The notes below the pieces were generated by a model. That model was not told the origin of the DNA, searched no databases, and saw only the letters and a program-made list of their open reading frames with translations. A stretch of DNA of 33,824 bases from Bacillota bacterium. GTDB taxonomy: Bacteria; Bacillota; SHA-98; UBA4971. Positions within the stretch are counted from its first letter, which is position 1. Every line of letters starts with the position of its first letter. A program made the position numbers and the translations under genes. The stretch covers positions 1 through 33,824 of the forward strand of contig JASEJE010000013.1 of NCBI GenBank assembly GCA_030024085.1, given 5' to 3'. This document shows positions 330 to 27,140 of the stretch, piece by piece.

Positions 330-375
330 GTGAGGATTCAGAAAAAGTGTCGCAAACTTATGGCGCCATACTTAG
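326..375. repeat. Solo-end remnant of the CTAAGT...ACTTAG repeat family
   Basis: A 50-bp segment starts CTAAGTGAGGATTCAG and ends ATGGCGCCATACTTAG. The right 34 bases are the reverse complement of the left arm of the full copy at 14395-14605. The left 16 bases resemble the other terminus, as seen at the right end of the copies at 2235-2427 and at 23832. The roughly 150-bp core is missing, so this is best read as an internal-deletion derivative keeping both ends. Its first bases contain the stop codon of the upstream SIS gene. Confidence 0.7.
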
Positions 376-407
376 ACATGGGCAGGCGGCGGTCCAGAAA
401 CCGCGAC

Positions 408-887: not shown

Positions 888-1542
888 GCAGCCTCCCTCC
901 AAAGCGATTCCTTACGGTCGGGACGGTCGGGGCGGTCGGGACGCCGACCAGCGCACTGAGCCTACCGCCCCCCACCTCTGTGCCCACGCCCACGCCAACG
1001 CCCATTTGCGCCCCGCGCCCGCGCCCACAGCCTGTCCGGCCTCACAGGGAAGGCTGGACGGAGATTGACTACTGTTTTTCCTCCAACCGGCAGCTTTCGC
1101 CGAACGACGTGGATGATTTCCGGTCAGCTCACGCCCGGGAGGTGCCTGAAAACCATCCACCCACACCCACACCCACACCCACGCCCGCACCTGGACCGGC
1201 ACCAACGCCAGCGCTCGCATCCCCGCAGGCCCGCAACAACCCGCCCACCGCCGCGATCCGGCAGTCTGCCCGCGCCCACACCTGCACCCACAGGCACACC
1301 CACGCCCGCACCGGCACCGGCAACAACGCCAAGGCTCGCATCCCCGCACGCCCACGCCCATCCCCGCACCCACGGCCGCATCCGCGTGCCGGCGCCCTGC
1401 GCACCTCCCCGGCACCGGCGCCTTTCCCTGGGGATGGCAGCCGCCGCCCAGTACTGCGCTCACGATACGTAACGACCTCCGGCCGAGCGCAGCTGGTTGG
1501 GCCGTTTGGTCGCGCGAAACCGGCAGCCTTAGGAGCCCTTAA
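888..1542. other. Intergenic low-complexity DNA, no credible gene
   Basis: This stretch is rich in cytosine and in CCCAC/CGCCC-type words on the plus strand. All six frames are unusually open because of composition, giving overlapping long ORFs on both strands, none with a recognisable domain or a good ribosome binding site. I see no RNA gene. It contains the CCCACA tract listed separately. Confidence 0.6.
1158..1380. repeat. CCCACA/CCCACG minisatellite with a duplicated block of about 55 bp
   Basis: Runs of CCCACA and CCCACG hexamers occur near 1160-1190, 1270-1310 and 1345-1380. A longer block of about 55 bp beginning ACCCACGCCCGCACC and ending GCTCGCATCCCCGCA occurs near 1179-1230 and again near 1299-1350, about 120 bp apart. 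The plus strand is almost devoid of T, giving strong strand asymmetry. Confidence 0.7.
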
Positions 1543-2178
1543 TGCTACTCTGTTACGTATGGAGCCTCTGGTACTGCCGTCGCCTGAGCTGACATCTGAC
1601 GTACATCACGGGTTCCTCCTGCTGAGCCGTTCCCTGCGTCACGCTTGAGAGCCATCCACTGATGTACATCACTCGTCTGGCTCTTCCCGTTCCATACGTC
1701 ACGCATCGGAAGCCAATCAGTGACGTACATCATTGTTGCCGCCTTACCCGTTCCCTGCGTCACGGGTTCTCTACGAACCGTTCCATACGTCACGCATTCG
1801 CGGCCAATCAGTGATGTGCATCATCGTTGCCGCTTCACCCGTTCCGCACGTCACGGGTTCTCCACGAATCGTTCCACAGGTCATGCATCGAAGCGGGACC
1901 AGTGACGCACATCACGGGTTCCTTCTGACCCGTTCTCTACGTCATCATTGAGAGCCATCCAGTGATGTACATCACTGGTCCGAGTCTCACTCGTTCTCTA
2001 CCTCATGCGTCGAATCCAATCGCTGACGCACGTCACTCTTCCCGCCGTACCCGTTCCGCACATCACGGGTCCTCGAGGAACTGTGAGCTCATGAGCCACC
2101 AGGGCCAGGAGTCGCCCTGCCAAACACGTCCGCCACGCCTGCCAACCCGGATGGCATTTCATATCTGACAGAGCAGTA
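1543..2178. mobile_element. Non-coding repeat element with inverted ends and a 30.5-bp periodic array
   Basis: The left end reads TGCTACTCTGTTACGTATG, and the right end is an imperfect inverted copy (ATCTGACAGAGCAGTA on the plus strand). Between them lie sixteen copies of a core RCRTCA word (one copy reads ACCTCA and one AGGTCA). They start at 1603, 1636, 1666, 1696, 1727, 1757, 1787, 1818, 1848, 1878, 1909, 1939, 1969, 2000, 2030 and 2060, that is, steps of 30 or 31 bp after a first step of 33. Seven lie in TGAYGYACRTCA near-palindromes and the rest follow a CCGTTCC-type prefix. A shorter copy sits at 9820-10113. No transposase is encoded, so this would be a non-autonomous, MITE-like element or a regulatory or structural array. 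Confidence 0.65.
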
Positions 2179-2234
2179 TCAAGACCGTGATTCTGGCAGA
2201 GAACGCATACGCAACAGAGCAGTACCAGGACTGG

Positions 2235-2427
2235 CTATGTATGGGTTTGCAAATCCGCGCCAGTTTGGCAGAAGCTTCCGGGTTGCCGGTGCTTGCACGA
2301 CGGGGCGTTGAAGATTTGACAAGCCTGAATGCCAAACCTAACGAGGCGCGCCGCAAGCGCGCCGCCCCCGGAGTGCAACACCGGCAACCTCTGGGAAAGT
2401 GGCAGCGATCTCTGAACCCACACTTAG
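2235..2427. repeat. CTAAGT...ACTTAG palindromic repeat, 193-bp copy
   Basis: This copy begins CTATGTATGGG and ends CCCACACTTAG. Its core contains GGTTGCCGGTG paired with CACCGGCAACC, the neighbouring TTGCAC/GTGCAA and GGGG/CCCC pairs, and an inner hairpin GGCGCGC-CGCAA-GCGCGCC. It matches the copy at 23639-23832 nearly base for base across the core and right arm. A short 90-residue ORF across it is a by-product of the palindromes, not a gene. Confidence 0.8.
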
Positions 2428-2441
2428 TCATAGTGAATGAG

Positions 2442-2523
2442 GCCGGCTCCCATTATCGTAAGCCGTAGGTTACACTTGAGGCACTTGCCTTTAGTGCAGA
2501 GCTACGTACGAAAGGGAGCCGGT
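2442..2523. other. Nested hairpin, possible structured RNA or mini-element
   Basis: Arms pair in strict nested order. GCCGGCTCCC (2442-2451) pairs with GGGAGCCGGT (2514-2523), CGTA (2457-2460) with TACG (2507-2510), CGTAG (2464-2468) with CTACG (2502-2506), CACT (2473-2476) with AGTG (2493-2496), and AGGC (2479-2482) with GCCT (2487-2490) around an ACTT loop. It lies about 170 bp before the GntR start. It matches no riboswitch consensus I recognise. It lacks a T-tract, so it is not an ordinary terminator. Confidence 0.5.
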
Positions 2524-2627
2524 ACACGTAATGTTACCACAAAATGCGTCGGTCTAGAAGCAGGCAGGGACAAAAGTTTCTCACGACGCGGCAGGAGATC
2601 CTGGACACATGGCGAAGCTAAACGATA

Positions 2628-2654
2628 AAGATTATAATCTTATATGTTTATACT
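2628..2654 (+). promoter_or_regulatory. AT-rich promoter/operator region before the GntR gene
   Basis: A perfect 14-bp palindrome, AAGATTATAATCTT (2628-2641), contains a TATAAT hexamer (2633-2638). A second -10-like TATACT lies at 2649-2654. This is the only strongly AT-rich spot for hundreds of bases, 43-70 bp before the start codon. A clear -35 box at 17 bp is not visible. I infer that the palindrome is an operator, plausibly autoregulatory for the GntR protein. Confidence 0.5.
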
Positions 2655-2696
2655 GTAGTCCCCACCCCCAACCCACCCCTCAAAGGAGGTCGCAAC

Positions 2697-3533
2697 GTGG
2701 TCCATCCGGGCGTTGACCGGGCGAAACCCGTGCCCCTGTATCACCAGGTGAAGGAGTCGCTCCGCGAGCGAATAGAGGCCGGGGAGTGGCCGCCGGGGGA
2801 GCGCATCCCGACGGAAAAGGAGCTTGCCGCCGAGTACGCAGTAAGCCAGATTACCGTAAGGCAGGCCCTGGCCCGGCTGGCCAGCGAAGGCCTCGTGGAA
2901 CGCTGCCAGGGCAGGGGCACGTTCGTGTCGCAGCCTTCAGTCGTACAAGACATCCTGGACCTTGGCGGCTTCTCGGCCGGGCTCGCCAGCGCGGGCATCG
3001 AGATCGAGACCCGGCTCCTCGGCGCCGGTATTGTTGCCGCGAGCGAAGGTGTCTCCCAGCGCCTGAAGGTGGCCCAGGCCGCCTCCGTGATAGAGGTCCG
3101 TCGCGTCCGCCTTACGGCTGGGGTGCCAATATCGCTCCAGACATCGTATATGCCTTGCGAGCTGTGTCGGCCCATCCTTGACCGCGACCTCGCACGCGAG
3201 TCGCTGTTTTCGCTGCTCACCGAGGCCTGCGGCCTGGAGCTCGTGCGCGCAGAGGAGGTCCTCAGCGCGGTCACGGTGGACGAATATGAGGCAAAGGTCT
3301 TGCTTGTGACCCCCGGAAGCCCGGCGTTTCTGGTCCGGAGGACCACGTTTGACAGGAACGGAACGCCCGTCGAGTTCGTAAAATCCGTGCTGCGAGGTGA
3401 TAGGTGCAAGTTTACGGCGACGCTGACTACCAGAGCGAAGGGAAAGACGGGAACAGGGATAGGAGCGGGAACGAGGACGAATCGCGCGGAAACAGGAGAG
3501 CAGACTGTCGGCATCAAGACGCAGGTATCCTGA
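2697..3533 (+). CDS. GntR/HutC-family transcriptional regulator
   Basis: The protein has 278 residues. Residues about 13-78 form a GntR winged helix: PLYHQVKESLRERIEAG, then GERIPTEKELA and a recognition helix with SQITVRQALARLASEGL, ending in GRGTFVS. Residues about 95-240 form a UTRA effector domain of the HutC subfamily (SLFSLLTEACGLELVRAEE, PAFLVRRTTFDRNGTPVEF). The last 35 residues are a Gly/Thr/Lys-rich tail with no domain match that I recognise. The GTG start is supported by AAAGGAGG at 2682-2689. It is the first gene of a co-directional run with the ECF transporter, so it probably controls that operon in response to a small ligand, sugar- or cofactor-related; the ligand is not deducible. 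Confidence 0.92.
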   Translation: MVHPGVDRAKPVPLYHQVKESLRERIEAGEWPPGERIPTEKELAAEYAVSQITVRQALARLASEGLVERCQGRGTFVSQPSVVQDILDLGGFSAGLASAGIEIETRLLGAGIVAASEGVSQRLKVAQAASVIEVRRVRLTAGVPISLQTSYMPCELCRPILDRDLARESLFSLLTEACGLELVRAEEVLSAVTVDEYEAKVLLVTPGSPAFLVRRTTFDRNGTPVEFVKSVLRGDRCKFTATLTTRAKGKTGTGIGAGTRTNRAETGEQTVGIKTQVS

Positions 3534-3560
3534 GCCATGTGCACGTTGAGAGCAGTTTTT

Positions 3561-3606
3561 CCCTTTAGGAGTCTCCCTTAGGAATCTTCGATCTTGACAC
3601 AATGTC
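3561..3606 (+). promoter_or_regulatory. Direct repeat plus GACA-CAA-TGTC dyad before the ECF S gene
   Basis: Two near-identical tandem words, CCCTTTAGGAGTCT (3561-3574) and CCCTTAGGAATCT (3575-3587), are followed by GACACAATGTC, a dyad at 3596-3606 that sits immediately before the AGGAGG site at 3611-3616. This position would suit an operator or a translational control site. It has a TTGACA but no -10 partner at the right distance. Confidence 0.35.
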
Positions 3607-3624
3607 TACAAGGAGGAGAGTCCA

Positions 3625-4176
3625 ATGGCAATCGGCCCCGAGCTCAAGAGTCCTCCCTCTCAGGGGAGCGAACTGAAGCACGAAGGTGACCTGCGCAAGA
3701 CATACTGGACCCCCAGGCGTGTCGCCCGGATGGCGATATTCGTGGCGCTCAGCGCTGTCGGCGCGCTCATCAAGATCCCGAGCCCGACCGGCACGGTGGC
3801 TCTTGACTCGTGCCCCGGCTATTTTAGCGCCATATCCTTCGGCTGGCTCGAAGGCGGCATCGTCGCCGCGATAGGCCACATCTTCACGGCGGCCACGACC
3901 GGCTTCCCGCTCAGCGTGCCCATCCACATCCTGGTTGCAGTCGAGATGGCGGTCTTCGCCGCAGCGTTCTGGTGGATCAACAAGAAGCTTGGAGTAATAG
4001 CGGCGATAATCGCCGCCACGTTCCTTAACGGAGTCGTGGCCGCCTTCGTGATGGTCCCCATCGGCGGCATGGGACTGGCGCTCGGGCTACTGGCGCCGCT
4101 CACAGTGGGGTCGGCCGTCAACATCATCATCGCAGCGGTGGCCTACGCGATCGTGAAACGCAGCAACATGATCTGA
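3625..4176 (+). CDS. cblT: ECF transporter S component, probably alpha-ribazole type (CblT-like)
   Basis: A small integral membrane protein of 183 residues. A soluble N-terminus of about 30 residues (ends YWTPRRVARM) is followed by about five or six hydrophobic helices, the usual build of ECF S components, which bind a vitamin or precursor and dock on the EcfA-A'-T module. The first helix and loop (IKIPSPTGTVALDSCPGYF) and the HIFTAATTGFPLSVPIHI stretch resemble what I recall of the CblT family, predicted to import alpha-ribazole. The AGGAGG site is 8 bp before the ATG. Downstream genes supply a CblS-like kinase and a complete ECF energising module. The S-component identity is secure; the substrate is inferred mainly from neighbours, and other precursors remain possible. 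Confidence 0.75.
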   Translation: MAIGPELKSPPSQGSELKHEGDLRKTYWTPRRVARMAIFVALSAVGALIKIPSPTGTVALDSCPGYFSAISFGWLEGGIVAAIGHIFTAATTGFPLSVPIHILVAVEMAVFAAAFWWINKKLGVIAAIIAATFLNGVVAAFVMVPIGGMGLALGLLAPLTVGSAVNIIIAAVAYAIVKRSNMI

Positions 4177-4209
4177 TCGGGGCGACGGCAACCACAGAGG
4201 CCACAAGGG

Positions 4210-5286
4210 ATGGGCTCCACAGGGGATGAAGAACACATGTCGCATTCAGGCCATTCAGAGATAGAGCGAGAGCTGGCAGAGCTGGCGGGACTGGCGGGAC
4301 TGGCGGGACTGGCGAAATCGGCGGGGCCGATGGGGCTGGCGGGGCGAGCGGAGTCGGCCGGCCTCGCAGGCCAGGCGGGCGTCGGTTCGCCCGCCGGTCG
4401 GCCCACCAGCTCGCCCGCCAGTTCGCCCGCTAGTTCGCCGGAGGAAGTCGCACGCGCCATCCTCCGGCGGCGCGTGGAGAGGCGTCGCGACCTGACGCTG
4501 GTGCGGCTTGCGGGCCCATATTACCTCGTCATCGCGTGCGACTCTGACGGCGGGATAGGCCCGAAACCCCACGACACAGTCAAGGTGCCCGGTTATCTCC
4601 TCGGGCGGTTCGCAGCGCGCGTGCCACTCATGGAGATCCTCGCCAGTGGCGCCCGTCCGCTGGTACTGGTCGACGCGTTGAGCGTAGAATTGGAGCCGAC
4701 GGGCAAAGAGATCATCGAAGGCGTGAGGTTCGAAGCTGGTCTTGCAGGAATCGAAGGCGAGGGAGCAGTCACCGGAAGCACAGAAGACAACGTACCAACG
4801 GTCGCAACAGGGGTCGGAGTTACGGTCATAGGACTTGCGCAGCAACATCGGCTGAGAGCTGGGACCTCTGCTCCCGACGATATCATCGCAGCCGTCGGTG
4901 TCCCGAAGAGCGCACCCGGAGATGTAGTAACGATCGACGACCCTGAGATCGCAGATGTCCCTACGGTGATGAAGCTGGCACACATGGCGGTGGTTCACGA
5001 CATCTTGCCCGTCGGCTCCAAGGGAATTGAATACGAGGCCCGCCAGATGGCCGCGTCGGCCGGCCTCGGCGTCGTCCTGACGGCAGACCCCGGCCTCAAC
5101 ACCAGGAAGTCGGCAGGTCCGGCAACGTGCGTGCTGGTTTCGGTAGCGGCAGCGGCGGGCAAGGACGGTGACGCGGCACGCCGGACGCGCCGGGCGCTCG
5201 ACGAGATCTGCCGGGCCGTGGGCAAGCCCGTGGCACTCGTGGGCCGGCTCACACCTGATGGCGGCGATCCGGCGCGCCCGCGTTGA
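4210..5286 (+). CDS. cblS: AIR-synthase/ThiL-fold kinase, probable alpha-ribazole kinase (CblS-like)
   Basis: A cytoplasmic PurM/ThiL-superfamily protein. The catalytic part starts near residue 80. It has an ATP-binding CDSDGGIGPKPHDTVKVPG segment, then LMEILASGARPLVLVDALSVE and GAVTGSTEDNVPTVATGVGV, ending in a C-terminal PurM-like domain. CblS proteins, known from Listeria and Geobacillus, phosphorylate alpha-ribazole to its 5'-phosphate for cobamide assembly and belong to this superfamily; they travel with CblT. The first 77 or so residues are an unusual low-complexity Leu-Ala-Gly and Ser-Pro-Ala stretch. ATG 4210 (GAGG 9 bp upstream) and ATG 4237 (AGGGGA 10 bp upstream) are both possible starts. 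It follows the S-component gene by 33 bp. The alternative, a ThiL-type kinase for another substrate, cannot be excluded. Confidence 0.7.
   Translation: MGSTGDEEHMSHSGHSEIERELAELAGLAGLAGLAKSAGPMGLAGRAESAGLAGQAGVGSPAGRPTSSPASSPASSPEEVARAILRRRVERRRDLTLVRLAGPYYLVIACDSDGGIGPKPHDTVKVPGYLLGRFAARVPLMEILASGARPLVLVDALSVELEPTGKEIIEGVRFEAGLAGIEGEGAVTGSTEDNVPTVATGVGVTVIGLAQQHRLRAGTSAPDDIIAAVGVPKSAPGDVVTIDDPEIADVPTVMKLAHMAVVHDILPVGSKGIEYEARQMAASAGLGVVLTADPGLNTRKSAGPATCVLVSVAAAAGKDGDAARRTRRALDEICRAVGKPVALVGRLTPDGGDPARPR
4266..4440 (+). repeat. In-frame 9-bp tandem repeats in the kinase N-terminus
   Basis: CTGGCGGGA-type 9-mers are repeated in tandem from about 4276 to 4345 and encode Leu-Ala-Gly triplets. 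A second set of TCGCCCGCCAGT-type units near 4405-4440 encodes Ser-Pro-Ala-Ser. The reading frame is preserved because the units are multiples of three. Confidence 0.7.
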
Positions 5287-5448
5287 GAGCGGCTCAAGGC
5301 CGCGTCGCATGTGGGCGATATCGCGGGTCGACCGTATTGCGCGTCGTCATTGCGTGTCGCCCTGCAATGTCATGGTATCAGCTGACGCTCGGAGCATCAT
5401 CAGGCTTCGCAGCGTGCCGACACGGAATCAGGGAGTGCATCGCAGTAC

Positions 5449-7371
5449 ATGGCAGAAACAACTGTTGCTCACGGCAGAAGCATTGTCGAGGTCGAGTCGC
5501 TTTCATACAGGTACCCAAAAGGCAAGACTCCCACCCTTAAAGGTATAACCTATGGCATTGATGCCCCGCGCTTCGTCGCGATCATGGGCCCGACCGGCGC
5601 AGGCAAGACCACGTTCGCCATGACGCTCAACGGGCTTGTCCCGCAGTTCTTCGAGGGCGACGTGTCGGGCCGCGTCTCGGTCATGGGCATGGACACGCAG
5701 AAGTTCCGGATCCAAACGCTGGTTTCCAGGGTCGGCCTGGTGATGCAGGACCCGGAAACCCAGATCTTCGGCATCACGGTCAGGGAGGACGTGGCGTTCG
5801 GCCCAGGGAACATGGGCCTTCCGCCGGTAGAGATCGAAGGCCGGATCCCGGAGTCGCTCCGGGTGGTCCGGCTTGCCGGCTACGAGGGACGGTTCACGAG
5901 CGAGCTATCGGGCGGCGAGAAGCAGAGGCTCGCGATAGCGGGCGTGCTTGCGATGCGCCCGGAGGTGCTCGTGCTGGATGAGCCCACGTCGGAGCTCGAC
6001 CCATTGGGCCGCGACGAGATTTACGCGGCCGTTGACCGGCTGCAGCGCGAACAGAACCTCACCATCCTGGCGGTGGAGCACTCGAGCGAGGACATAGCCG
6101 AGCGGGCCGACGAAATCGTCGTGGTGAACCAGGGCGAGGTGGTATGGCGCGGGCGGCCGCGCGACCTTTTCTGCAACGCGCCTCTGACCATGAGCTTCGG
6201 CATCAGGCCCCCCCAGGTGTGTGAGTTCGGGTGGAGGCTGTATGAGCTGGGGCTTATCGGCCAGCGTGATGTGCCCCTCACGGCCAGCGAGGCAGCCGAC
6301 CTTGTAAGGCGCATCCTGAAAGGGCGGAGCATTCCCCGGGGCGTTTCGCGCACGCTCCATGAGGCAGCTCCCGACGATTTCTCGCCCGTGTCTCCACCGC
6401 CCTGCCAGGCAACGCCGCACGGGACGTCAGGTTACGACGCGTCATCACAGATGCAAGGCGGGCCTGGCCGGTCCGGCACGACCACCTGCGCGCCGGTTGC
6501 GATCAGGGTTGAAGGGCTGGAGCACAGCTACGGCCAGACCACCCAGGCCCTACGCGGCATCGACCTGGAGATACGGCGCGGCGAGTTCGTGGCGCTCGTC
6601 GGCCAGAACGGCGCGGGCAAGACCACGCTGGTCAAGCACTTCAACAACCTCCTCAAGCCTACCAGAGGGCGCGTCGTGATCGACGGCGCCGACACGAGGG
6701 GCGAGACCGTAAGCAGCCTCTCGCGGCGCGTGGGCTACGTCTTCCAGAACCCGGACCACCAGATATTCTGCTCCACGGTTGAGGAGGAAGTAGGCTATGG
6801 CCTGCGCAACCTGGGCCTTACGCCCGAGGCGGCCCGGGAGCGCGTGCGCGAGGTGCTCAGGTTCGTGGGCCTCGAGGCCGTGGCCGACCGCCACCCGTTC
6901 ACGCTCGGCAAGGGAGAGCGGCAGCGCGTCGCCGTGGCATCGGTGCTGGTCATGAAGCCGAACATCCTCGTCATCGACGAGCCCACCACGGGCCAGGACT
7001 GGACGGGCGCCGAGCACATGATGCGCCTGGTCCGGGACCTCCATCGTGCAGGGCATACGATCATCATGATCACGCACGACATGCGCATCGTCGCAGAGTA
7101 TGCGGAGCGGGTCATCCTCATGCACAAGGGGAAGGTCGTGGCCGACGGGACGCCCGCCGAGGTCTTCAGCCAACGCGAGGTGCTGCGCTCGGCCTACCTC
7201 GCTCCGCCGCAGATATCGCTCCTGGCGGACGAACTTGCGGACGTCGGCATGCTTCCGGGAGTAACCACCGTGGACGAGGCCGTGGCACTCGTCGCCGCCG
7301 CGCTGGAGGACGGGTCTCAGGGCGGGACGCCACTGAGCGGGACGCCGCAAGGTGGAGCGCCGCCAGGCTGA
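5449..7371 (+). CDS. ECF transporter ATPase, fused EcfA1-EcfA2 (two ABC domains)
   Basis: A 640-residue cytoplasmic protein made of two ABC ATPase domains, equivalent to the usual separate EcfA1 and EcfA2. Domain 1 (about 15-250) has Walker A GPTGAGKT (47-54), Q-loop QDPETQIF, signature LSGGEKQ (153-159) and Walker B VLVLDEP. Domain 2 (about 350-590) has GQNGAGKT (from 385), a QNPDHQIF Q-loop, and Walker B ILVIDEP. Its signature is LGKGERQ in place of LSGGQ, a deviation also known in some ECF ATPases. A linker of about 50 residues rich in Pro, Ser and Gly joins them. It energises uptake by the S component encoded two genes upstream, together with EcfT downstream. The start has only a weak GGAG about 13 bp upstream. 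Confidence 0.93.
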   Translation: MAETTVAHGRSIVEVESLSYRYPKGKTPTLKGITYGIDAPRFVAIMGPTGAGKTTFAMTLNGLVPQFFEGDVSGRVSVMGMDTQKFRIQTLVSRVGLVMQDPETQIFGITVREDVAFGPGNMGLPPVEIEGRIPESLRVVRLAGYEGRFTSELSGGEKQRLAIAGVLAMRPEVLVLDEPTSELDPLGRDEIYAAVDRLQREQNLTILAVEHSSEDIAERADEIVVVNQGEVVWRGRPRDLFCNAPLTMSFGIRPPQVCEFGWRLYELGLIGQRDVPLTASEAADLVRRILKGRSIPRGVSRTLHEAAPDDFSPVSPPPCQATPHGTSGYDASSQMQGGPGRSGTTTCAPVAIRVEGLEHSYGQTTQALRGIDLEIRRGEFVALVGQNGAGKTTLVKHFNNLLKPTRGRVVIDGADTRGETVSSLSRRVGYVFQNPDHQIFCSTVEEEVGYGLRNLGLTPEAARERVREVLRFVGLEAVADRHPFTLGKGERQRVAVASVLVMKPNILVIDEPTTGQDWTGAEHMMRLVRDLHRAGHTIIMITHDMRIVAEYAERVILMHKGKVVADGTPAEVFSQREVLRSAYLAPPQISLLADELADVGMLPGVTTVDEAVALVAAALEDGSQGGTPLSGTPQGGAPPG

Positions 7372-7651
7372 CCCATACAGGTTTCATTCGTTTGACCCAA
7401 TTCTTTCGGCTTGACCGCTTCGGGTTAGCTTGGCTGACGACATCAATGACGCCTGACCAGATGCGGATCACAAGCTCGCGGGAGTCTTCATGAGTATCAG
7501 AGGCTCCCGGCGCCTACGCTTCGTGACGCGCCGAGACTGGAGCGCCGTCCCCGGAGCGCAGCACCAGCAATCATTGGACGAGCTATAAGTCGACTCGGGT
7601 TCCACAGCGGCACCCAGGTGCAGCAGAAGAATGCATCGCAGGAGGAATCAC
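7372..7651. other. Intergenic gap with a decayed repeat fragment
   Basis: There is no gene here. Around 7533-7575 the bases GAGCGCCGTCCCCGGAGCGC followed by AGCACCAGCAATC resemble the right core arm of the CTAAGT repeat family (GCGCGCCGTCCCCGGAGTGC then AACACCGGCAACC), without a recognisable left arm. I read it as a worn fragment, with modest certainty. The GGAGG at 7641-7645 is the ribosome binding site of the next gene. Confidence 0.4.
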
Positions 7652-8461
7652 ATGTTTCTCGAGTACATCCCCGGCCGATCCATTATCCACCGCCTCGACG
7701 TCCGGTCGAAGGTCGTAGCATTCATCTGCCTCATGGTGGTTCTGTTCCTTTTCAGGAGCCCCGCGTACAACGCCGCCATCGTGCTGGCCGTGGCGACAAT
7801 CGCCGCCGCCGCGCGCCTGCCCGCCCGGAAGTTGTGGGGGGTCCTCGGACCGCTAGTCCCGGTCTTCGTGTTCATCATGGTCATAACCGGATACACGTAC
7901 CCCGCATCCATGTTCACCACAGAGGCGGCGCGGAGGGTTCTCTTCTACTCGTGGCCAGGGCGCCACCTGCCAGTGTCCACGGGTGGCATCCTTTACGGGC
8001 TCACCTTGCTTCTCCGGATCCTCACCATGGTGGTGGCGTCGTCGGTCCTCACGCTCACGACGCCCCTGGACGACTTCCTCCAGCTTCTGCGGGCCATGCG
8101 TGTCCCGTACGAGATGTCGTTCATCATCACAACGGGGATTCGGTTCGTGCCCACGATGGAAAGGAAGGCTGCGATGGTCCTGGACGCGCAGAGGGCACGC
8201 GGCACCATGGTCGAGACCGGCGGCATGATACAGCGCATCAAGGCGTACGTCCCAGTCATGGTCCCGATGATCGTTGACTCCATCAGGATGTCCGAGAACC
8301 TCGCGTGCGCCATGCTCAACCGGGGCTACGGCGCAACCCGAAACTGGACGACCCTCCGGAAGATGGCCATGCGCCCGCGCGACTACCTTGTGCTTGCGGC
8401 TTGCGCCGCTCTCACCGTCGCGGCCGTCGCGGCCGCACGTTGCGGTTACGGAGCGCTCTGA
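7652..8461 (+). CDS. ecfT: ECF transporter transmembrane component EcfT
   Basis: The protein has 269 residues and several hydrophobic helices (about 22-55, 62-82, 112-135, 150-168, and one at the C-terminus). It shows the family landmarks: N-terminal YIPGRSIIHRLDVRSK, the first coupling motif DAQRARG (Arg-Gly at 183-184), and the second motif NRGYG (224-225). These Ala/Arg-Gly motifs in the cytoplasmic coupling helices bind the grooves of the EcfA ATPases. I chose ATG 7652 rather than the upstream in-frame ATG 7631 because GGAGG at 7641-7645 is 6 bp before it and the protein then starts like other EcfT proteins. With the fused ATPase and the S component it forms a dedicated (group I) ECF importer. 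Confidence 0.93.
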   Translation: MFLEYIPGRSIIHRLDVRSKVVAFICLMVVLFLFRSPAYNAAIVLAVATIAAAARLPARKLWGVLGPLVPVFVFIMVITGYTYPASMFTTEAARRVLFYSWPGRHLPVSTGGILYGLTLLLRILTMVVASSVLTLTTPLDDFLQLLRAMRVPYEMSFIITTGIRFVPTMERKAAMVLDAQRARGTMVETGGMIQRIKAYVPVMVPMIVDSIRMSENLACAMLNRGYGATRNWTTLRKMAMRPRDYLVLAACAALTVAAVAAARCGYGAL

Positions 8462-8492
8462 TCTCAGCATCACTTCACGGGAGGTTCCTTCA

Positions 8493-9500
8493 ATGAACGA
8501 CACGCTATTCGAACGTGCATACGGATGTCTCATGGGAGTTGCTGTCGGCGACGCGATGGGAATGCCTTCGTCGCTCATGACGCCGGACGAGATCCGCCGC
8601 CAGATAGGCCGCATAGACAGGTTCCTGCCTGCCCCGCCCGGACATTTCATCCATGACGGCCTGCCGGCTGGGAGCACGACCGACGATACCGCGCAGACCC
8701 TTGCGGTGGCTCGCGCGATCATCGGCGACCGAGGCAGAGTAGTGCCCGAGAGCGTAGCGCGGGAGATTCTGGCCTGGGTCGAGTCCATAGGAGCCCTCGA
8801 CGAAGGGGCGCTCGTGCTCGGGCCCAGCTCGCGGACGGCCCTGAGGCTCCTGCGCGACGGCGTTCCCCCTGCCGAGGCAGGCAAGTCCGGGGAGACCAAC
8901 GGCGCGCCCATGCGGATTAGCCCAGTCGGCATCATCCATCCGGGTGACCTCCACAATGCGGTAGCCGACACCGAACTCTGTTGTCTGCCGACCCACGGCA
9001 CGAGCATCGCCATCTCCGGCGCCGCCGCGGTGAGCTGCGCCATCGCGTCTGCCATGGGCGGGGAGACGTCCCTCGAAGAGGTGATACGCGCGGCAATGCG
9101 GGGAGCCGACCTCGGGGCGACCCGCGGACGGGTGGTGGCTGCGCCGTCCATCGCGAGGAGGATCGAGTGGGCCGCGGACCTTGCTCTTTCGGCCCGCAAC
9201 GAGTCGCGCGCGTGCCAGGACCTGTACGAGCTTGTGGGGACCACCGTCGCCACTTCGGAGACCGTGCCCGCGGCCCTCGCCCTCTTCGCTCTTGCCGGGG
9301 GCGACCCGATGAAGACGGCAGTCCTCGCCGCGAACACCGGCGGCGACTGCGACACCGTGGGCGCCATCGCAGGCTCGGTGGCAGGCGCCTTCACAGGAAT
9401 CGCCGCCTTCCCCGGCGATGCCATCGAGACCATCGAGCGCGTCAACAGGCTCGATCTGCGCGCCGTGGCCGTGGCGCTCGTGGAAACCGTCAAGCGCTGA
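8493..9500 (+). CDS. ADP-ribosylglycohydrolase (DraG) family hydrolase
   Basis: A 335-residue cytoplasmic enzyme of the DraG/ARH fold, which binds two magnesium ions and cleaves alpha-N- or O-glycosidic bonds of ribosides. Visible motifs are GDAMGMP (19-25), TTDDT (62-66, metal ligands), PTHGT, and the C-terminal TGGDCDT (about 282-288, metal ligands). The GGGAGG site at 8479-8484 supports ATG 8493; the longer open frame upstream overlaps ecfT and is not needed. It ends the ECF operon, 31 bp after ecfT, which suggests it acts on the imported nucleoside or a derivative. Since alpha-ribazole also has an alpha-N-glycosidic bond, hydrolysis of it or a related nucleoside is an attractive but untested idea. 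Removal of ADP-ribose from protein is the alternative. Confidence 0.9.
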   Translation: MNDTLFERAYGCLMGVAVGDAMGMPSSLMTPDEIRRQIGRIDRFLPAPPGHFIHDGLPAGSTTDDTAQTLAVARAIIGDRGRVVPESVAREILAWVESIGALDEGALVLGPSSRTALRLLRDGVPPAEAGKSGETNGAPMRISPVGIIHPGDLHNAVADTELCCLPTHGTSIAISGAAAVSCAIASAMGGETSLEEVIRAAMRGADLGATRGRVVAAPSIARRIEWAADLALSARNESRACQDLYELVGTTVATSETVPAALALFALAGGDPMKTAVLAANTGGDCDTVGAIAGSVAGAFTGIAAFPGDAIETIERVNRLDLRAVAVALVETVKR

Positions 9501-9565
9501 CACCGCCCAGATCCGCTGACGTTGACGCCGACCCTACGCGCCTCTGCCCTTTCTTGACACACGCT

Positions 9566-9594
9566 GCGACGGCCTGGCTCCGCGAGGCCGTCGC
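9566..9594 (+). terminator. Strong hairpin after the ECF/ADP-ribosylglycohydrolase operon
   Basis: GCGACGGCCT (9566-9575) pairs perfectly with AGGCCGTCGC (9585-9594) around a 9-base loop, 66 bp after the stop codon. No T-tract follows, so it is either a Rho-assisted or bidirectional end or an mRNA-stabilising stem. Confidence 0.45.
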
Positions 9595-9629
9595 GGCGTG
9601 CCATCACGGCCATCGATGGTTGCCGCCGG

Positions 9630-9820
9630 TCATGGGGCCAGGGTCTCTTCTGCCAGTGCCTTCACAAAGCCTATGAACCTGCTGAGCGCCTCCTGAAAGT
9701 CGTCATTGACTTCGGCAAGCCGCGATAGGAAAGGCACAAGCTTGTTCCAGTCCAGGTTGAGCTCGTACACGTTCCTGAACATGTGCCGAAATCTGATGAA
9801 CAGGCAGCAGCCTCTCGTAC
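9630..9820 (-). pseudogene. C-terminal remnant of a HepT-like toxin / nucleotidyltransferase-partner protein
   Basis: Reading the minus strand, an open frame ending at 9630 encodes FIRFRHMFRNVYELNLDW followed by about 40 more helical residues (KLVPFLSRLAEVNDDF, then a stretch ending ETLAP). The RFRH-x6-Y-x4-LDW pattern is typical of the C-terminal half of HepT/MNT-type proteins, whose RX4HXY motif is the toxin active site and which pair with a nucleotidyltransferase antitoxin. Here the motif reads R-F-R-H-M-F-R-N-V-Y, so the expected His is Asn. The N-terminal half and the partner are absent. Coding similarity stops where the 30.5-bp array element begins (about 9820), so insertion or deletion there probably broke the gene. 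An ATG at 9782 would give only a 50-residue peptide. Confidence 0.6.
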
Positions 9821-10113
9821 TACGAAGCGGGACGGGTGACGCGCATCACGGGTTCTTCCTCAACCGTTCCGCACGTCATCGTTGAGGGCTATCCGGTGAT
9901 GTACATCACTGGTGCGTGCCTTATCGATTCCCTGTATCACGCGTCCAAGAGCAAGGATGATGCACATCACGCGTCAAGCTCTTCCCGTTCCGTACATCAC
10001 GGGTCCCTCGGGGAGGTGCACGCCTGGGTGTCCCCGAGACCGGAAGTCGCGCTGCCGAACAAGCCCGCCAGGCCCATGAGGCTGGATGTCATTTCGTATC
10101 TGACAGAGTAGCA
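9820..10113. mobile_element. Second, left-truncated copy of the 30.5-bp periodic element
   Basis: The sequence matches positions about 1890-2178 of the first element in order. Core words start at 9843, 9873, 9903, 9934, 9964 and 9994 (steps 30, 30, 31, 30, 30; the 9934 copy reads GTATCA). The same tail of about 115 bp follows and ends ATCTGACAGAGTAGCA. The left inverted end is missing. The right end abuts the stop codon (10114-10116) of the minus-strand UroD-like gene. Confidence 0.65.
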
Positions 10114-11220
10114 CTAGGCCTGCGCCTGCGACCACCGGGCTCCTTCGTCCATCATTATGAGGTAATTCCGCAGCGGGACGTAGTTTGCCACGGAGTTGCC
10201 GGAGCCGAGCGCATACCGCCGCGGCATGCAGCGGTCGAGGATGTCCCTGACGTACGCGCGAAGCTCGTTCTCCTCAAGCCGGCACAGCTTGTCCACGTCG
10301 ACCCCGCCCAGCGCGGCGACGCGATCCCCGTACGCCTCCTTGAACTCGGTCACAGGGATTATCTCGTCCTGGAAGGAGTGGATGGCGTCGATCTTCACGT
10401 CGTCTATCAGGGTGTCCATGATCTCGCGGAGGTTCCCGCACGAGTGCAACCAGTACATCAGGCCGTGTGCATGGGCCAGCTCTGCGTAGCGCTTGTGCCA
10501 CGGAAGCACATGCTTCGCCAGGTGGCACGGTGATAGGAACGTGGACGTTTTAAACCCCAGGTCGTCGCCCTGGAAGAAGCCACCCACGTTGTCCAGGGTG
10601 ACGATGTTCCGATAGAAGCCGCACATGGTCTCGCCCACCCTGTTGAACACGGCCTCCACAAGCTCAGGGTTCTCAAACAGCATGATGCTCATGCCCTCGA
10701 ACCCGAGCAGGTGCTCTGACACGACCTCGAACACCCCGCTCGAGGGGCAAACCATCATCCTCATGCCAGGCGGGAGGTTTCGCGCGACGAACTCGTACCT
10801 CGAATAGTCGACATCCTCCGGCCTCGGCCACGGGTATCGCTCGTAGTCCCCCCAGGATGCGATGAGGCCCCCACGCTCGTCCACCCACGACCTCTTGCCC
10901 CGCGAAAGGTCGGCGGTGTCCTCCGCCACCTTCTCGGCGCGCGCGAACTCGATGGCACCGGAGATCCATATGTAATCGTAGCCCATCCTGTGCCAGAACT
11001 TGATGAGCTGCCGGTAGTAGGTCTCCGGATCCTGGTCGAGGCTCGCCGCCGCCGGCTCCCCAAGGACGTCCTCGAGCACGCGTCTTACCATCTCCGGGTC
11101 GGCGTAAAGCTCGGCAAAGTGGACTCTCACGGCAGCCTTATGTCCCAGGATCACCTGCCGCAACTCATCGAAGTTCGGCTCGGGCTTTGCAAGAGGGACC
11201 CTGAGGCCGTTCGTCGTCAT
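10114..11220 (-). CDS. Uroporphyrinogen decarboxylase-like (UroD/MtaA superfamily) protein
   Basis: A 368-residue TIM-barrel protein of the UroD superfamily. This family includes uroporphyrinogen decarboxylase and zinc-dependent corrinoid or CoM methyltransferases. The segment YWLHSCGNLREIMDTLID (about residues 255-272) has the H-x-C arrangement that binds zinc in the methyltransferase branch, and SFQDEI plus LGGVDVDKL follow as in that family. GMRMMVCPSSGVFE is a typical barrel strand. It is far from the heme-type UroD signature, so I do not call it hemE. GGAGGGG lies 8 bp before ATG 11220. It follows xylulokinase by 45 bp on the same strand, so it sits at the tail of the sugar operon. Many sugar clusters carry such a UroD-like gene whose reaction is not established. 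Confidence 0.85.
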   Translation of the reverse strand: MTTNGLRVPLAKPEPNFDELRQVILGHKAAVRVHFAELYADPEMVRRVLEDVLGEPAAASLDQDPETYYRQLIKFWHRMGYDYIWISGAIEFARAEKVAEDTADLSRGKRSWVDERGGLIASWGDYERYPWPRPEDVDYSRYEFVARNLPPGMRMMVCPSSGVFEVVSEHLLGFEGMSIMLFENPELVEAVFNRVGETMCGFYRNIVTLDNVGGFFQGDDLGFKTSTFLSPCHLAKHVLPWHKRYAELAHAHGLMYWLHSCGNLREIMDTLIDDVKIDAIHSFQDEIIPVTEFKEAYGDRVAALGGVDVDKLCRLEENELRAYVRDILDRCMPRRYALGSGNSVANYVPLRNYLIMMDEGARWSQAQA

Positions 11221-11265
11221 GGCCGATCCCCTCCTCGCTAATGCTTCGCTGCTAATGCCTCGCTA

Positions 11266-12816
11266 CTAGTGCTCTCGGCTGCGCCGGGACACGATCTCGG
11301 CTGCTCGATCGAACTCGGGCTTGAGACGCGGATAGAGATCCCGATACAGGCCGTAATACTCCTCGTACAGGCCCACGCCGGACAGCTCTGGCTCAGTTAC
11401 GCCGGCGGGCTTGATGGTTCTCTCGCATGCCTCCGGCACGCTTCTATAGACCCCTGCCCCCACTCCCGCCAGGAGCGCGGCGCCGTAAGCTGGTCCCTCG
11501 GTAACCTCGAGGGTGACGAGGGGGGATCCGAACACGTCTGCGATGATCTGCCTCCACAGCGTGCTTCTTGCTCCGCCGCCGGAGACCCGCAGCTCCCCAA
11601 TGGAAACGCCGAGCGCCTTAACAAGCTCGAGGCAGTCTCGCAAGCTGAAGGCCACGCCCTCCATGACCGCCCGGGCCATGTGGGCCTTTGTGTGGCGCAG
11701 AGAAAGCCCGAAGAACACGCCGCGGGCGTTGGGGTCCGGATACGGCGTCCTCTCGCCGGCCACGTACGGCAGGAACACCAGGCCCTCACACCCGGGTTCG
11801 GCGTGCGCGGCCTCGGCCGTGATGATCTCATACGGGTCCGTTCCGGCGCATCTCGCCACCGCCACCTCGGCCTCGCACAGCGCATCGCGGAACCAGCGCA
11901 TCGAGCCACCCGCCCCCAGCGTGACTCCCATGGCGTGCCACTTGCCGGGCACGGCGTGGCAGAACGTGTGAAGCCGCCCCTCGGCGTCAAGCGCAGGTTC
12001 GTCCATATACGCAAATACGACGCCGCTCGTGCCCACTGTCACGGATATCGCTCCCGGCTTCACGATGCCGCTGCCCACGGCCCCCGCTGCCTGGTCGCCG
12101 CCGCCTCCGACCACGGGCGTCCCCTCCGCAAGGCCGGTCTCGCGCGCCGCCGCCTCCGTAACCCGCCCGGTCACCTCCGGGGATTCGTAACATCTGGGGA
12201 GCCAGTCCTCACTAACCCCGAGCGCGCCGAGGACGTCATGCGACCACCTGCGGTCCTCGACATCGAAGAGGAGGGTGCCTGAGGCGTCTGAAACCTCCGT
12301 CGCGTACTCACCCGTGAGCATGAACCTTATGTAGTCCTTGGGGAGCAGGACCTTGCGGATCTTCTTGTATACGTCCGGCTCGTGATCCCTGACCCAGACG
12401 ATCTTCGGCGCCGTGAAGCCGGTCAAGGCAGGGTTGCACGTAAGCTCGCGAAGGCGCTCCGCGCCGCCGACGGCCCCGATGATCCAGCGGCACTCGTCCA
12501 TAGTCCGCTGGTCGCACCAGAGGATGGCCGGCCGGAGGACCTGGTCCTTCTCGTCGAGCAGCACGAGCCCGTGCATCTGGCCAGTGAGCCCCACGCACCC
12601 GATATCGGCCGGCTCCACACCCCCGCGCTCGCACGCCCGCCGTATGGCGCCGACGGCGGCGGCCCACCAGTCCGCCGGGTCCTGTTCCGCCCAGTTAGGG
12701 CGCGGGGTGTGAAGCGGGTAGACCTCGGTTGCGGATGCGACGATGCCCCCGTCTTCGTCCATAACGATGACCTTGGTGCCTGAAGTCCCTATGTCGATAC
12801 CCAGGAGTAAAGGCAA
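11266..12816 (-). CDS. xylB: Xylulokinase
   Basis: A 516-residue FGGY sugar kinase of normal length that phosphorylates D-xylulose with ATP to give xylulose 5-phosphate for the pentose phosphate pathway. Visible features are the N-terminal phosphate loop IDIGTSGTKV, the xylulokinase-typical GLTGQMHGLVLLD followed by ILWCDQRT (substrate contacts), GGGGDQAAGAVGSG with the catalytic Asp, and the C-terminal SGGGARSTLWRQIIADV adenosine motif. I chose TTG 12816 because AGGAGG lies 8 bp upstream and the protein then begins PLLLGIDIG as usual; an ATG 36 codons earlier would add an Arg-rich leader. It follows the binding-protein gene with a gap of about 400 bp that contains a hairpin and a repeat. Confidence 0.95.
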   Translation of the reverse strand: MPLLLGIDIGTSGTKVIVMDEDGGIVASATEVYPLHTPRPNWAEQDPADWWAAAVGAIRRACERGGVEPADIGCVGLTGQMHGLVLLDEKDQVLRPAILWCDQRTMDECRWIIGAVGGAERLRELTCNPALTGFTAPKIVWVRDHEPDVYKKIRKVLLPKDYIRFMLTGEYATEVSDASGTLLFDVEDRRWSHDVLGALGVSEDWLPRCYESPEVTGRVTEAAARETGLAEGTPVVGGGGDQAAGAVGSGIVKPGAISVTVGTSGVVFAYMDEPALDAEGRLHTFCHAVPGKWHAMGVTLGAGGSMRWFRDALCEAEVAVARCAGTDPYEIITAEAAHAEPGCEGLVFLPYVAGERTPYPDPNARGVFFGLSLRHTKAHMARAVMEGVAFSLRDCLELVKALGVSIGELRVSGGGARSTLWRQIIADVFGSPLVTLEVTEGPAYGAALLAGVGAGVYRSVPEACERTIKPAGVTEPELSGVGLYEEYYGLYRDLYPRLKPEFDRAAEIVSRRSREH

Positions 12817-12854
12817 GGCGGACACCTCCTGCTCGTCTGCGGCGAAGCTTCGTC

Positions 12855-12887
12855 GGGCTGGCCTCCATATTCCGGATGGGCCAGCCC
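12855..12887 (-). promoter_or_regulatory. Hairpin in the leader of xylB
   Basis: GGGCTGGCC (12855-12863) pairs with GGCCAGCCC (12879-12887) around a 15-base loop, about 40 bp upstream of the xylB start on the minus strand. There is no T-tract. It could stabilise the upstream transporter mRNA, with lower expression of xylB downstream. Confidence 0.4.
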
Positions 12888-13009
12888 GGCGCGGGGCGGG
12901 ACGGGCTGACATCCCGCGTCCCATCAGTCGGCCTTCCTGGCGGCCTTGAGCGCCCGGGGCCTGGCGGTCCGGGCCCCGGGTATCGGAGTTCGCACGTCAC
13001 GCCGCTCGG

Positions 13010-13229
13010 CTAAGTAGACCGCCACAAACTCGCGCTGCTCTTGAGCCCGCAAGCCCTGGCCAGGGTTGCCGGTTCGTCCTCCCGGGACGGCGCGTGCGGT
13101 GAGGTGCGTTCGAATCTCGCGCTCAAGGCTAGCCAGATCCCAGGCACCCCGCCCTGGCAAGCACCGGCGACCCCAACACCGTCAGGCGAAGTGGCGCAAG
13201 CTCATGGCGCCATACCGCCCCACACCTAG
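13010..13229 (-). repeat. CTAAGT-family repeat, 220-bp inverted copy overlapping a stop codon
   Basis: Read on the minus strand it starts CTAGGTGTGG, has ATGGCGCCAT, then a core with GTCGCCGGTGCTTGC and ACCGGCAACCC, and ends GTGGCGGTCTACTTAG. It is therefore the same family as 14395-14605, more diverged. Its first bases supply the TAG stop codon (13226-13228) of the sugar-binding protein gene. Confidence 0.75.
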
Positions 13230-14209
13230 AACACCGACTCCGGCGTGTAGTAGTCCTTCGCGTTCTCTCTCGTGACGAGTTCAGCGCTGAGGATGACCTT
13301 CGACGGAAGCTTGTTCTGGTAGAACCCGTTCAGCTTCTGGTCACGAAGCGCCATCACCGCCATGCTTACGCCGGTGGCTATCATGGACGGCGGATAGGTG
13401 ACGTCGGCGCGCACCAGCGGGTCGCCGTCGATTATCATCTTGATGATGTCCTTGGAACCCGCGCCCCCCAGGAAGAGCTTGATGTCCTTGCGGCCCGACT
13501 CCTTGTACGCCTGAAGAACGCCCTTCAGCACGTCGTCGTCCTGCGCCCAGACGCCATCGATCTCTTTATACTTCTGGAGGTAGTTCTCCATTATCTCGAG
13601 GCCCTTCTGCGTCGACCAGTACGCCGGCTGGGAGTCGAGGATCTCGATGCCGGGGTACTCCTTCATGACGGCCTTGAACGCCTCGACGCGCTCGGTGTTG
13701 ATGACGCAGGGGATTCCCTCGAGGACCACGATCTTGCCTTTCCCTTTTAGCTCCTTGGCCATCCATTCGCCCGCGACCCTTCCGAGACCAGGGTTGTCGC
13801 CGGCGACGTAGATGTTCTCAACGGGCTTCGTAAGACCCCTGTCGACTGAGACGATGAATATCCCTTTCTTGCTCGCCTTTTCCACAACAGGCGTGAGCGG
13901 CGCCGAGTCATGGGCGAGGATGACGAGTGCGTCTATGCCCTTGACCATCAGGTCCTCGACCTGGCCCACCTGCTGCTGGGCAGAGTCGGCCGTGACGAGG
14001 AAGAACGTGACGTCCTTGTCCTTCGCCTGCCAGTCGCTTATGGCCTTCTTGGCCCACCAGACGATGCCGCCCGTCCAACCGTGGTCCGCCGTGGGAATCG
14101 AGACGCCTACCCGGATCTTCTTGGGCGCCGCAATCGCGGAACCAAGCAGAACCGTTGCCGTCAGGCACAGCGTCAGGAGCAGGACCAGCCCAACTCTGAA
14201 CCTCTTCAT
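13226..14209 (-). CDS. ABC sugar transporter substrate-binding protein (RbsB/XylF type)
   Basis: An exported sugar-binding protein of about 327 residues. It has a positively charged start (MKRFR), a hydrophobic signal of about 20 residues and a probable signal-peptidase I site after AIAA; the single early Cys is not in a lipobox. The mature part begins KKIRVGVSIPTADHGWTGG. It shows the periplasmic-binding-protein type-1 pattern (VEDLMVKGIDALVILAHDS, VSVDRGL, AGDNPGLGRVAGEWMAKEL, VWAQDDDVLKGVLQAYKE) known from ribose, xylose and galactose binding proteins. GGAGGA lies 9 bp before ATG 14209; ATG 14215 would be too close. The permease and ATPase genes are upstream in the same operon. The stop codon is within a repeat terminus, so the extreme C-terminus may have been trimmed. 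Confidence 0.92.
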   Translation of the reverse strand: MKRFRVGLVLLLTLCLTATVLLGSAIAAPKKIRVGVSIPTADHGWTGGIVWWAKKAISDWQAKDKDVTFFLVTADSAQQQVGQVEDLMVKGIDALVILAHDSAPLTPVVEKASKKGIFIVSVDRGLTKPVENIYVAGDNPGLGRVAGEWMAKELKGKGKIVVLEGIPCVINTERVEAFKAVMKEYPGIEILDSQPAYWSTQKGLEIMENYLQKYKEIDGVWAQDDDVLKGVLQAYKESGRKDIKLFLGGAGSKDIIKMIIDGDPLVRADVTYPPSMIATGVSMAVMALRDQKLNGFYQNKLPSKVILSAELVTRENAKDYYTPESVF

Positions 14210-14394
14210 CACCATATCTCCTCCTTCAGCATTGCAGTGAGTTTCCGCTGTCTACCAGGTGCCAGACTTCCTCTACGCATAACCACACCAACGAACGCCT
14301 CGCGTAGCAATGCCTGGTGGCTCTCACCCCCAACCAGAATGCCAGCCTTCGCAGCCTTCGCATTCCTCGCATCCTTCGCGCCCCGCAACGCACC

Positions 14395-14605
14395 CTAAGT
14401 ATGGCGCCATAAGTTTTCGCCACTTTTCTTGAGGGTGCTAGGCTTGCCGGTGCTTGCACGACGGGGCGTCGAGAATTCGGCTGGCCCGTGCGCCAAATTC
14501 GAACGAGGCGCGCCGCGAGCGCGCCGTCCCCGGAGTGCAACACCGGCAACCCTGGAGAGCCCCTGCACGCTGAAAAGCAGCGCGGATTTCTGGCGATCTC
14601 CTTAG
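14395..14605 (+). repeat. CTAAGT-family repeat, 211-bp reference copy
   Basis: This copy begins CTAAGTATGGCGCCATAAG and ends TGGCGATCTCCTTAG. The core has GCTTGCCGGTGCTTGCAC paired with GTGCAACACCGGCAACC, GGGGCG with a CCCC arm, and an inner GGCGCGC/GCGCGCC hairpin. It sits in the 560-bp gap between the permease and binding-protein genes (14210-14769), where I see no gene; 14640-14765 is Pro/Arg-coding low-complexity sequence. Confidence 0.8.
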
Positions 14606-14769
14606 TTCGTCCGCAACGCATCCCTCCAACCCCGGGCTCACTCGACTTGCCCGGAAGCCTGTCGGTCAGCCGCACCGGCCGCACCGGTCCCGTTCTGAGC
14701 CCGAACCTGAGCCCGAGCCCGCCCACGGCTGCCCCCCTCCTCGGGCCCACGCCGAGTCCCGGCGTCCGC

Positions 14770-27117: not shown

Positions 27118-27140
27118 TCAACAAGGAGGAGGATGGGGGC

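Follow-up and report, generated by a model that had tools for sequence, protein, structure and literature searches.

The window (the whole stretch of DNA that was analysed, 33,824 nucleotides) contains an operon with the gene order GntR-S-AIRS-A1A2-T-DraG (Table 1), and the question that it raises is which substrate its last gene product, a DraG-fold enzyme, might cleave in the company of a transporter and a kinase. That a relative of the ADP-ribosylglycohydrolases closes the operon, as the original prediction had it, is borne out by the reading frame, the protein family, the fold and the gene order in relatives. The frame of 335 amino acids is open throughout from ATG to TGA, GGGAGG lies about 8 nt 5′ of the ATG, and the start is 31 nt past the stop codon of the ECF-T gene. 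Residues 11-308 of the protein match the Pfam family ADP_ribosyl_GH (PF03747) with 219 bits against a cut-off of 26.2 (E 1.2e-64). The full S-AIRS-A-T-DraG set is found in the relatives G001, G003, G010, G011 and G012, and A-T-DraG in G007 on a contig that breaks off within the A gene; since the set recurs complete in relatives, it is no chance arrangement of the window's contig. In G001, a CRISPR array (CRISPR-DR2, 21 repeats; L039 186-1559) precedes the GntR gene by about 2.8 kb.

Table 1. Genes of the operon, their predicted roles and the evidence for each.
Feature	Coordinates	Strand	Evidence
GntR/UTRA (HutC-type) regulator, likely substrate-responsive control of the operon	2697..3533	+	PF00392, PF07702
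ECF transporter S component, CblT-like, predicted alpha-riboside binder	3625..4176	+	PF12822, S tree
AIRS-domain protein, CblS (alpha-ribazole kinase) family	4210..5286	+	PF00586 29.9 bits; homologues, context, conserved columns
Fused ECF ATPases (A1A2)	5449..7371	+	TIGR04520/TIGR04521 above cut-off, two ABC stretches
ECF transporter T component	7631..8461	+	PF02361
DraG/ARH-fold hydrolase, predicted alpha-ribotide (alpha-riboside 5′-phosphate) N-glycosidase	8493..9500	+	PF03747, model, fold matches, ligands

An AlphaFold2 model of the DraG protein, made from an input of 43 sequences (window and public), has a mean pLDDT of 96.3 and matches MJ1187 from end to end (Z 40.2, rmsd 2.1, 301 residues). 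ARH3 (Z about 38) and R. rubrum DraG (Z about 36) are further matches, the range over MJ1187, ARH3, DraG, 6DRE and 8ZA7 being Z 34-40, and the structure of ARH3 with alpha-NAD+ (7ARW) is among the fold matches with Z 35.8. Identity to the ARH3/ARH1/DraG hydrolases in structural alignments is about 20-24%. The binuclear Mg ligand set, reported for ARH3 as Thr76, Asp77, Asp78, Asp314, Asp316 and Thr317 (PMC9738213), is present in the window protein as T63, D64, D65, D285, D287 and T288. Five of these residues (T63, D64, D65, D285, D287) and H168 are identical in 115 of 115 aligned rows of the DraG subfamily, and T288 is kept in 113 of the 115.

The likeness in fold and in the two-Mg ligands would also suit a protein ADP-ribosyl hydrolase such as DraG, ARH1 or ARH3, and the curated model of ADP-ribosyl-[dinitrogen reductase] hydrolase DraG (TIGR02662) does give a weak match; but its 85.7 bits are far below the cut-off of 337.05, as are the 60.8 bits obtained with the Tri1 model (cut-off 490). 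Unlike that of the known hydrolases, the context of the window gene is metabolic and not one of protein modification: kinase and transporter genes are its recurrent neighbours, and no nitrogenase or ADP-ribosyltransferase gene was seen in the operon. The equivalent of the catalytic Glu41 of ARH3 is, moreover, a serine, and activity on modified proteins is judged very unlikely. The window's genome (G000) encodes five PF03747 proteins; two further DraG-fold genes, more distant ones, stand in tandem on the same contig, about 53 kb downstream (G000:C4:62437-65521).

The S and AIRS genes are related to cblT and cblS, CblS being an AIRS-type protein; this kinship is drawn through cob-linked homologues, gene context and the literature, not through characterised CblS/CblT sequences. 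Of 398 genomes of the phylum, 97 gave a homologue in a search with the window AIRS protein, and across a set of 60 contexts the AIRS gene usually adjoins a homologue of the window S gene and often cobU, cobS or cobT. CblS is reported to be an alpha-ribazole kinase (PMC6461909) that phosphorylates the riboside (PMC6461909, PMC6167548), and the cblS-cblT pair to substitute for cobT in Lactobacillus (PMC5064896, PMC6167548). In a tree of S components (omitting L206, L189, L038, L123, L207, L197, L198, L205 and L208), the window S falls within a clade of 20 rows (SH-aLRT 97) made up of 10 loci with DraG and AIRS, one with DraG and PfkB, and nine with AIRS without DraG. When L084, a short contig, is set aside from these nine, seven of the eight full loci have a cobalamin riboswitch 6 to 121 nt ahead of the S/AIRS block (the exception is L129). 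The window S is thus closely akin to S components of the B12 regulon, because its clade-mates sit under cobalamin riboswitches. Of the AIRS columns conserved in both groups, all but one agree in residue between the DraG-linked proteins and the rest. In the AIRS tree, which omits L206, L189, L038 and L123, the bacterial DraG-linked proteins form one clade of 13 rows (12 DraG-linked plus L084; SH-aLRT 89, branch not starred) inside the CblS family. A search by sequence found no solved structure for the AIRS protein. Its N-terminus (window 4210-4460) is of low complexity, with Ala-Gly-Leu and Ser-Pro-Ala repeats, and AIRS matches in most other genomes begin only near residue 80-90.

The route proposed here begins with a dedicated ECF transporter whose CblT-like S component would import an alpha-riboside, for which alpha-ribazole or something closely similar is the most likely candidate. 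The CblS-like AIRS kinase would phosphorylate the 5′-hydroxyl, after which the DraG-fold enzyme, with its two Mg, would hydrolyse the alpha-N-glycosidic bond of the 5′-phosphate to release the base and ribose 5-phosphate. In the window lineage, which lacks the CobS that would build alpha-ribazole phosphate into a cobamide, the route would be catabolic. A probability of about one half is assigned to this route as a whole, and the looser claim that the DraG protein cuts an alpha-N-riboside or its phosphate is considered likely. The original prediction of a hydrolase of alpha-ribazole or another alpha-riboside is thus supported in part, strongly by its genomic context, with the amendment that the 5′-phosphate is probably a better candidate substrate than the free riboside, since the neighbouring gene encodes a kinase. 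The predicted logic resembles that of pseudouridine breakdown by PsuK and PsuG, in which a kinase acts first and a glycosidase then acts on the nucleoside 5′-phosphate, carried over here to alpha-nucleosides; it differs in that the folds are unrelated and that PsuG cuts a C-C bond. ECF importers usually serve scarce vitamins and not carbon sources, which counts against a breakdown route.

The type of bond is one for which the fold has precedents. The original prediction knew of no alpha-ribazole hydrolysis in the DraG family, but ARH1 and ARH3 are reported to hydrolyse alpha-NAD+, an alpha-N-riboside of an aromatic base, and not beta-NAD+ (PMC9738213). Because an alpha-ribotide is equivalent to an alpha-ADP-ribosyl-base minus its AMP part, the proposed step would be a small one for the DraG fold, and from the published structures we infer that the window enzyme may be capable of it. 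In ARH3, a histidine contacts the pyrophosphate on the side of the ribose (PMC6309922). The residue mapped to it by alignment is invariant in 115 of 115 rows of the subfamily and would suit a ribose 5-phosphate group, though ADP-ribose too.

The catalytic Glu41 of ARH3 is aligned with Ser27 of the window protein. In ARH3, the base displaces Glu41 from one Mg, activity of the E41A mutant is severely reduced, and the O-linked serine substrate depends on Glu41; in the authors' argument, the Glu41-assisted nucleophilic step is superfluous for the N-glycosidic bond of alpha-NAD+, and an assisting contact to the amide is described as possible (PMC8319183). The glutamate may matter for alpha-NAD+ after all, since it was ARH3 E41A that was used to trap alpha-NAD+ in the crystal. 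At this column, 13 of the 15 AIRS-linked rows lack glutamate (11 Ser, one Tyr, one Gln; two Glu) versus 19 of the 82 PfkB-linked rows (16 Gln, two Ser, one Thr; 63 Glu), the exceptions being the AIRS-linked L050 and L193, which keep glutamate, and the PfkB-linked L216 and L266, which have serine. The raw contrast is strong, but serine at this position needs only three origins and there are only two starred independent pairs, so a pairs test is without power; the exchange was rejected as a proof of function, and Ser27 is taken as a hint. Loss of the adenosine pocket was likewise rejected: the Gly-Ser-Tyr insert of ARH3 is missing from the window protein, but also from MJ1187, a Thermus homologue and 6DRE in the same alignments, and does not discriminate. 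ARH1 is reported to bind adenosine elsewhere (PMC6309922).

The DraG-linked loci are set apart from the B12 regulon by their control. There is no Rfam match in the window, and a cobalamin riboswitch was found at none of the DraG-linked AIRS loci, a set of 15 made up of the window, nine further loci, L050, L043, L199, L191 and L042 (L038, L189, L206 and L123 are left out as copies or partial contigs of the same lineages). Among AIRS loci without DraG, by contrast, 28 of the 57 were sampled and 24 have one, in batches of 8/9, 8/9 and 8/10, the first picked mostly for cob linkage and the other two not; in 18 of the 24 the riboswitch is at most 180 nt upstream of the S/AIRS block. As related loci do not count independently, the comparison was also made by family, which gives 16 of 19 versus none of seven (Fisher p 0.0002; families tallied by hand). 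Nine of the 15 DraG-linked loci have a GntR gene no more than 4 kb from AIRS, versus one of the 57 others, and that single case is probably L123, a cut contig from the genus of the window. Regulation has therefore switched in the DraG-linked loci, from which the cobalamin riboswitch is gone and in which GntR is common.

Neither CobS (PF02654) nor CobT was found in any of the 13 genomes of the window's family, eight of which hold AIRS, whereas CobS is present in 54 of 58 other genomes, or 54 of 56 without G014 and G016, which have no AIRS. CobS is also absent from G251, which has the same operon, and from the Melioribacter and Bacteroidota genomes (L192, L195, L200), and it is present in four DraG-linked lineages (G263, G125, Actinopolymorpha and three Nitrososphaeria). 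CobS is needed to use alpha-ribazole phosphate, which CblT-CblS feeds to this cobamide synthase. In the absence of CobS, alpha-ribazole phosphate has no known cobamide outlet in the window's family, G251, Melioribacter and Bacteroidota. Because the four other lineages retain CobS, the catabolic reading rests on the window's family, G251 and Ignavibacteriota/Bacteroidota; in the CobS-containing genomes a breakdown role is possible, not implied. Inspection by eye of window positions 26359-30352 showed a corrinoid protein, a UroD-type methyltransferase and a reductive activator, and the organism probably uses corrinoids despite the absence of CobS.

Two other explanations turn on these same results. 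One is that the substrate is another unusual nucleoside (for example a purine or nicotinamide alpha-riboside, or a damaged nucleoside) and that alpha-ribazole is not involved, with which the lack of a cobalamin riboswitch at all 15 loci, the absence of CobS and CobT from the window's family and the general nucleoside importers beside some DraG-linked AIRS genes (L050, L085) are consistent; it is nevertheless judged unlikely, as the window S branches among S genes that have a cobalamin riboswitch immediately ahead of them, the conserved columns of AIRS are the same but for one, and archaeal AIRS-DraG pairs adjoin cobA. The other is that DraG has an editing function related to cobamides, either stripping unwanted alpha-ribosides or recovering dimethylbenzimidazole for cobamide assembly. 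The neighbourhood of cobA in archaea speaks for this explanation, as does CobS in G263, G125, Actinopolymorpha and Nitrososphaeria, and genes like btuB and btuF flank the Melioribacter operon. These flanking genes are suggestive only of a B12 link, all being below curated cut-offs (169.9 vs 599.7 bits for BtuB, 67.3 vs 234 for BtuF, with a heme-binding model scoring slightly better than BtuF on the BtuF-like protein). With no CobS in the window's family, G251 and the three Melioribacter/Bacteroidota genomes, and no cobalamin riboswitch at DraG-linked loci, editing is quite improbable.

The pairing of AIRS with DraG recurs in Bacillota, Ignavibacteriota/Bacteroidota, Actinomycetota and Nitrososphaerota, which makes about seven lineages from four or more phyla: the window's family, G251, G263, G125, two complete operons in Ignavibacteriota/Bacteroidota (L192 of Melioribacter and L200 of Bacteroidota bin209), Actinopolymorpha alba (L193) and three Nitrososphaeria. 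The co-occurrence with CblS/CblT-like genes on which the original prediction depended was thus found, AIRS lying within 5.5 kb of DraG at eight of 80 named loci of the DraG subfamily and at eight of 59 loci in the phylum. PfkB is the neighbour at 60 of the named loci, a sample that was found with an alignment built from such members and is enriched for them, so that 68 of the 80 have one kinase or the other and 12 have neither; in the phylum, 28 have PfkB and 23 neither. PfkB and AIRS occur together within this distance at none of the 139 loci. On the DraG tree (which omits L189, L194, L195, L206, L207, L205, L197, L198, L208, L038 and hits below 120 bits), AIRS linkage needs eight changes, at least four of them forced by starred branches. 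Separate DraG lineages have therefore acquired the AIRS kinase or exchanged it with PfkB, and at G311 a PfkB gene stands where AIRS would be, together with a CblT-like S, A, T and DraG. What matters, it follows from such swapping, is a kinase together with DraG, and not every member of the subfamily need act on alpha-ribazole, since most sit with PfkB.

The window's genome has a sister operon (L036, G000:C26:1-20000, positions 5004-14613) with the order SorC-S2-A-T-PfkB-DraG-DhnA-type aldolase-zinc dehydrogenase-FGGY kinase. Its DraG is 44% identical to that of the window, it has a PfkB kinase and no AIRS, and it is recurrent in the phylum.

At L085 (G125), the order is PfkB, nucleoside-binding protein, ABC ATPase, two permeases, two nucleoside hydrolases (PF01156), AIRS and DraG. 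PF01156 enzymes act on beta-nucleosides, which would leave the alpha ones for DraG. The nucleoside hydrolases yield free ribose beside a PfkB kinase, and the PfkB partners of DraG score best against the ribokinase model TIGR02152, below its cut-off. DraG might accordingly cleave the unphosphorylated alpha-riboside to base and ribose, with the kinase acting separately or later (on ribose, if PfkB is ribokinase-like). Against this, AIRS/CblS is reported to phosphorylate the riboside itself (PMC6461909, PMC6167548), so that kinase and DraG would compete for one substrate, and the histidine that contacts the ribose-side phosphate in ARH3 is invariant; cleavage before phosphorylation is doubtful on these grounds. 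At L050 (G003:C45:42000-61000, positions 353-10988), GntR, DraG, PfkB, a nucleoside ABC importer, AIRS, a relative of ribose-1,5-bisphosphate isomerase and a PF04227 (PsuG-type) protein are encoded together, perhaps a bisphosphate route for several nucleosides.

The same DraG subfamily includes YegU of the E. coli yegTUV genes (L143; Enterobacterales loci such as L225 and L267). The DraGs of G263 and Actinopolymorpha branch next to the YegU clade (SH-aLRT 84). With its DraG-subfamily protein (37% identity), kinase, nucleoside-type importer and GntR regulator GgaR (YegW), this system is like that of the window, but its kinase is a PfkB and its importer an MFS protein, where the window has AIRS and ECF. 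On the strength of this kinship, the involvement in ADP-glucose or glycogen metabolism that has been proposed for yegTUV might be extended to the window. ADP-glucose, however, has no known alpha-N-riboside bond to cut, and the window kinase and transporter are like CblS and CblT, not YegV and YegT. ADP-glucose is reported to weaken the binding of GgaR, and loss of GgaR to raise glycogen, in a report that assigns no function to YegU (PMC10819704). A glycogen role for the window operon is therefore considered extremely unlikely. Somewhat more tentatively than the route proposed for the window, the kinase and DraG might together constitute a general means of alpha-nucleoside breakdown in bacteria and archaea, in which a CblS-like or PfkB kinase would make the alpha-ribotide and a YegU-type DraG, including YegU of E. 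coli, would cut it; the window operon would then be the alpha-ribazole branch, evolved from the salvage of a B12 precursor and retained once the cobamide synthase was lost, or because it was lost. A link to thiamin was considered and rejected: thiD/thiM stand beside yegU-type genes (Enterobacterales, L266) but look like a separate unit, with a TPP riboswitch between DraG and thiD in L266 and another that belongs to the thi genes of L225. Searched at the DNA level with a short query, E. coli genomes gave no match.

The closest known system is CblT-CblS salvage (Listeria, Geobacillus, Lactobacillus), which shares with the window a neighbouring ECF S component and AIRS-type kinase, the conserved kinase columns and its occurrence mostly in Bacillota. 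The window differs from it by the addition of DraG and of its own A1A2 and T, by GntR instead of a cobalamin riboswitch (a control that is frequent in CblT-CblS salvage, not strictly defining) and by a genome without CobS. By titles and abstract openings, the open literature (5.39 million papers) yielded no DraG-family reaction on alpha-ribazole, the single paper with both alpha-ribazole and ADP-ribosylglycohydrolase naming them in separate contexts, and for alpha-ribazole catabolism it yielded general cobamide papers (by listing). New here are that AIRS is paired with DraG, that regulation has switched and that CobS has been lost; the fold and the type of bond are not new. If the proposed route is correct, alpha-ribazole would have a predicted fate besides cobamide synthesis, a large orphan branch of the DraG family including E. 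coli YegU would have a substrate class, and the operon would be a clear case of vitamin-precursor salvage turned into a breakdown system. It would also mean that cobamide salvage is not to be predicted from cblS by itself, contrary to the assumption of genome surveys.

One genus provides a natural series of gains or losses, with the full operon in G251 (L083), DraG without S-AIRS in G274 (L149), and S-AIRS without DraG on a short contig of G117 (L084). In the Nitrososphaeria (L190, L191, L199), the AIRS gene is divergent from DraG and beside cobA, and the AIRS protein of L190 has an N-terminal ribbon-helix-helix domain (PF01402), so that it looks like a fusion of kinase and regulator.
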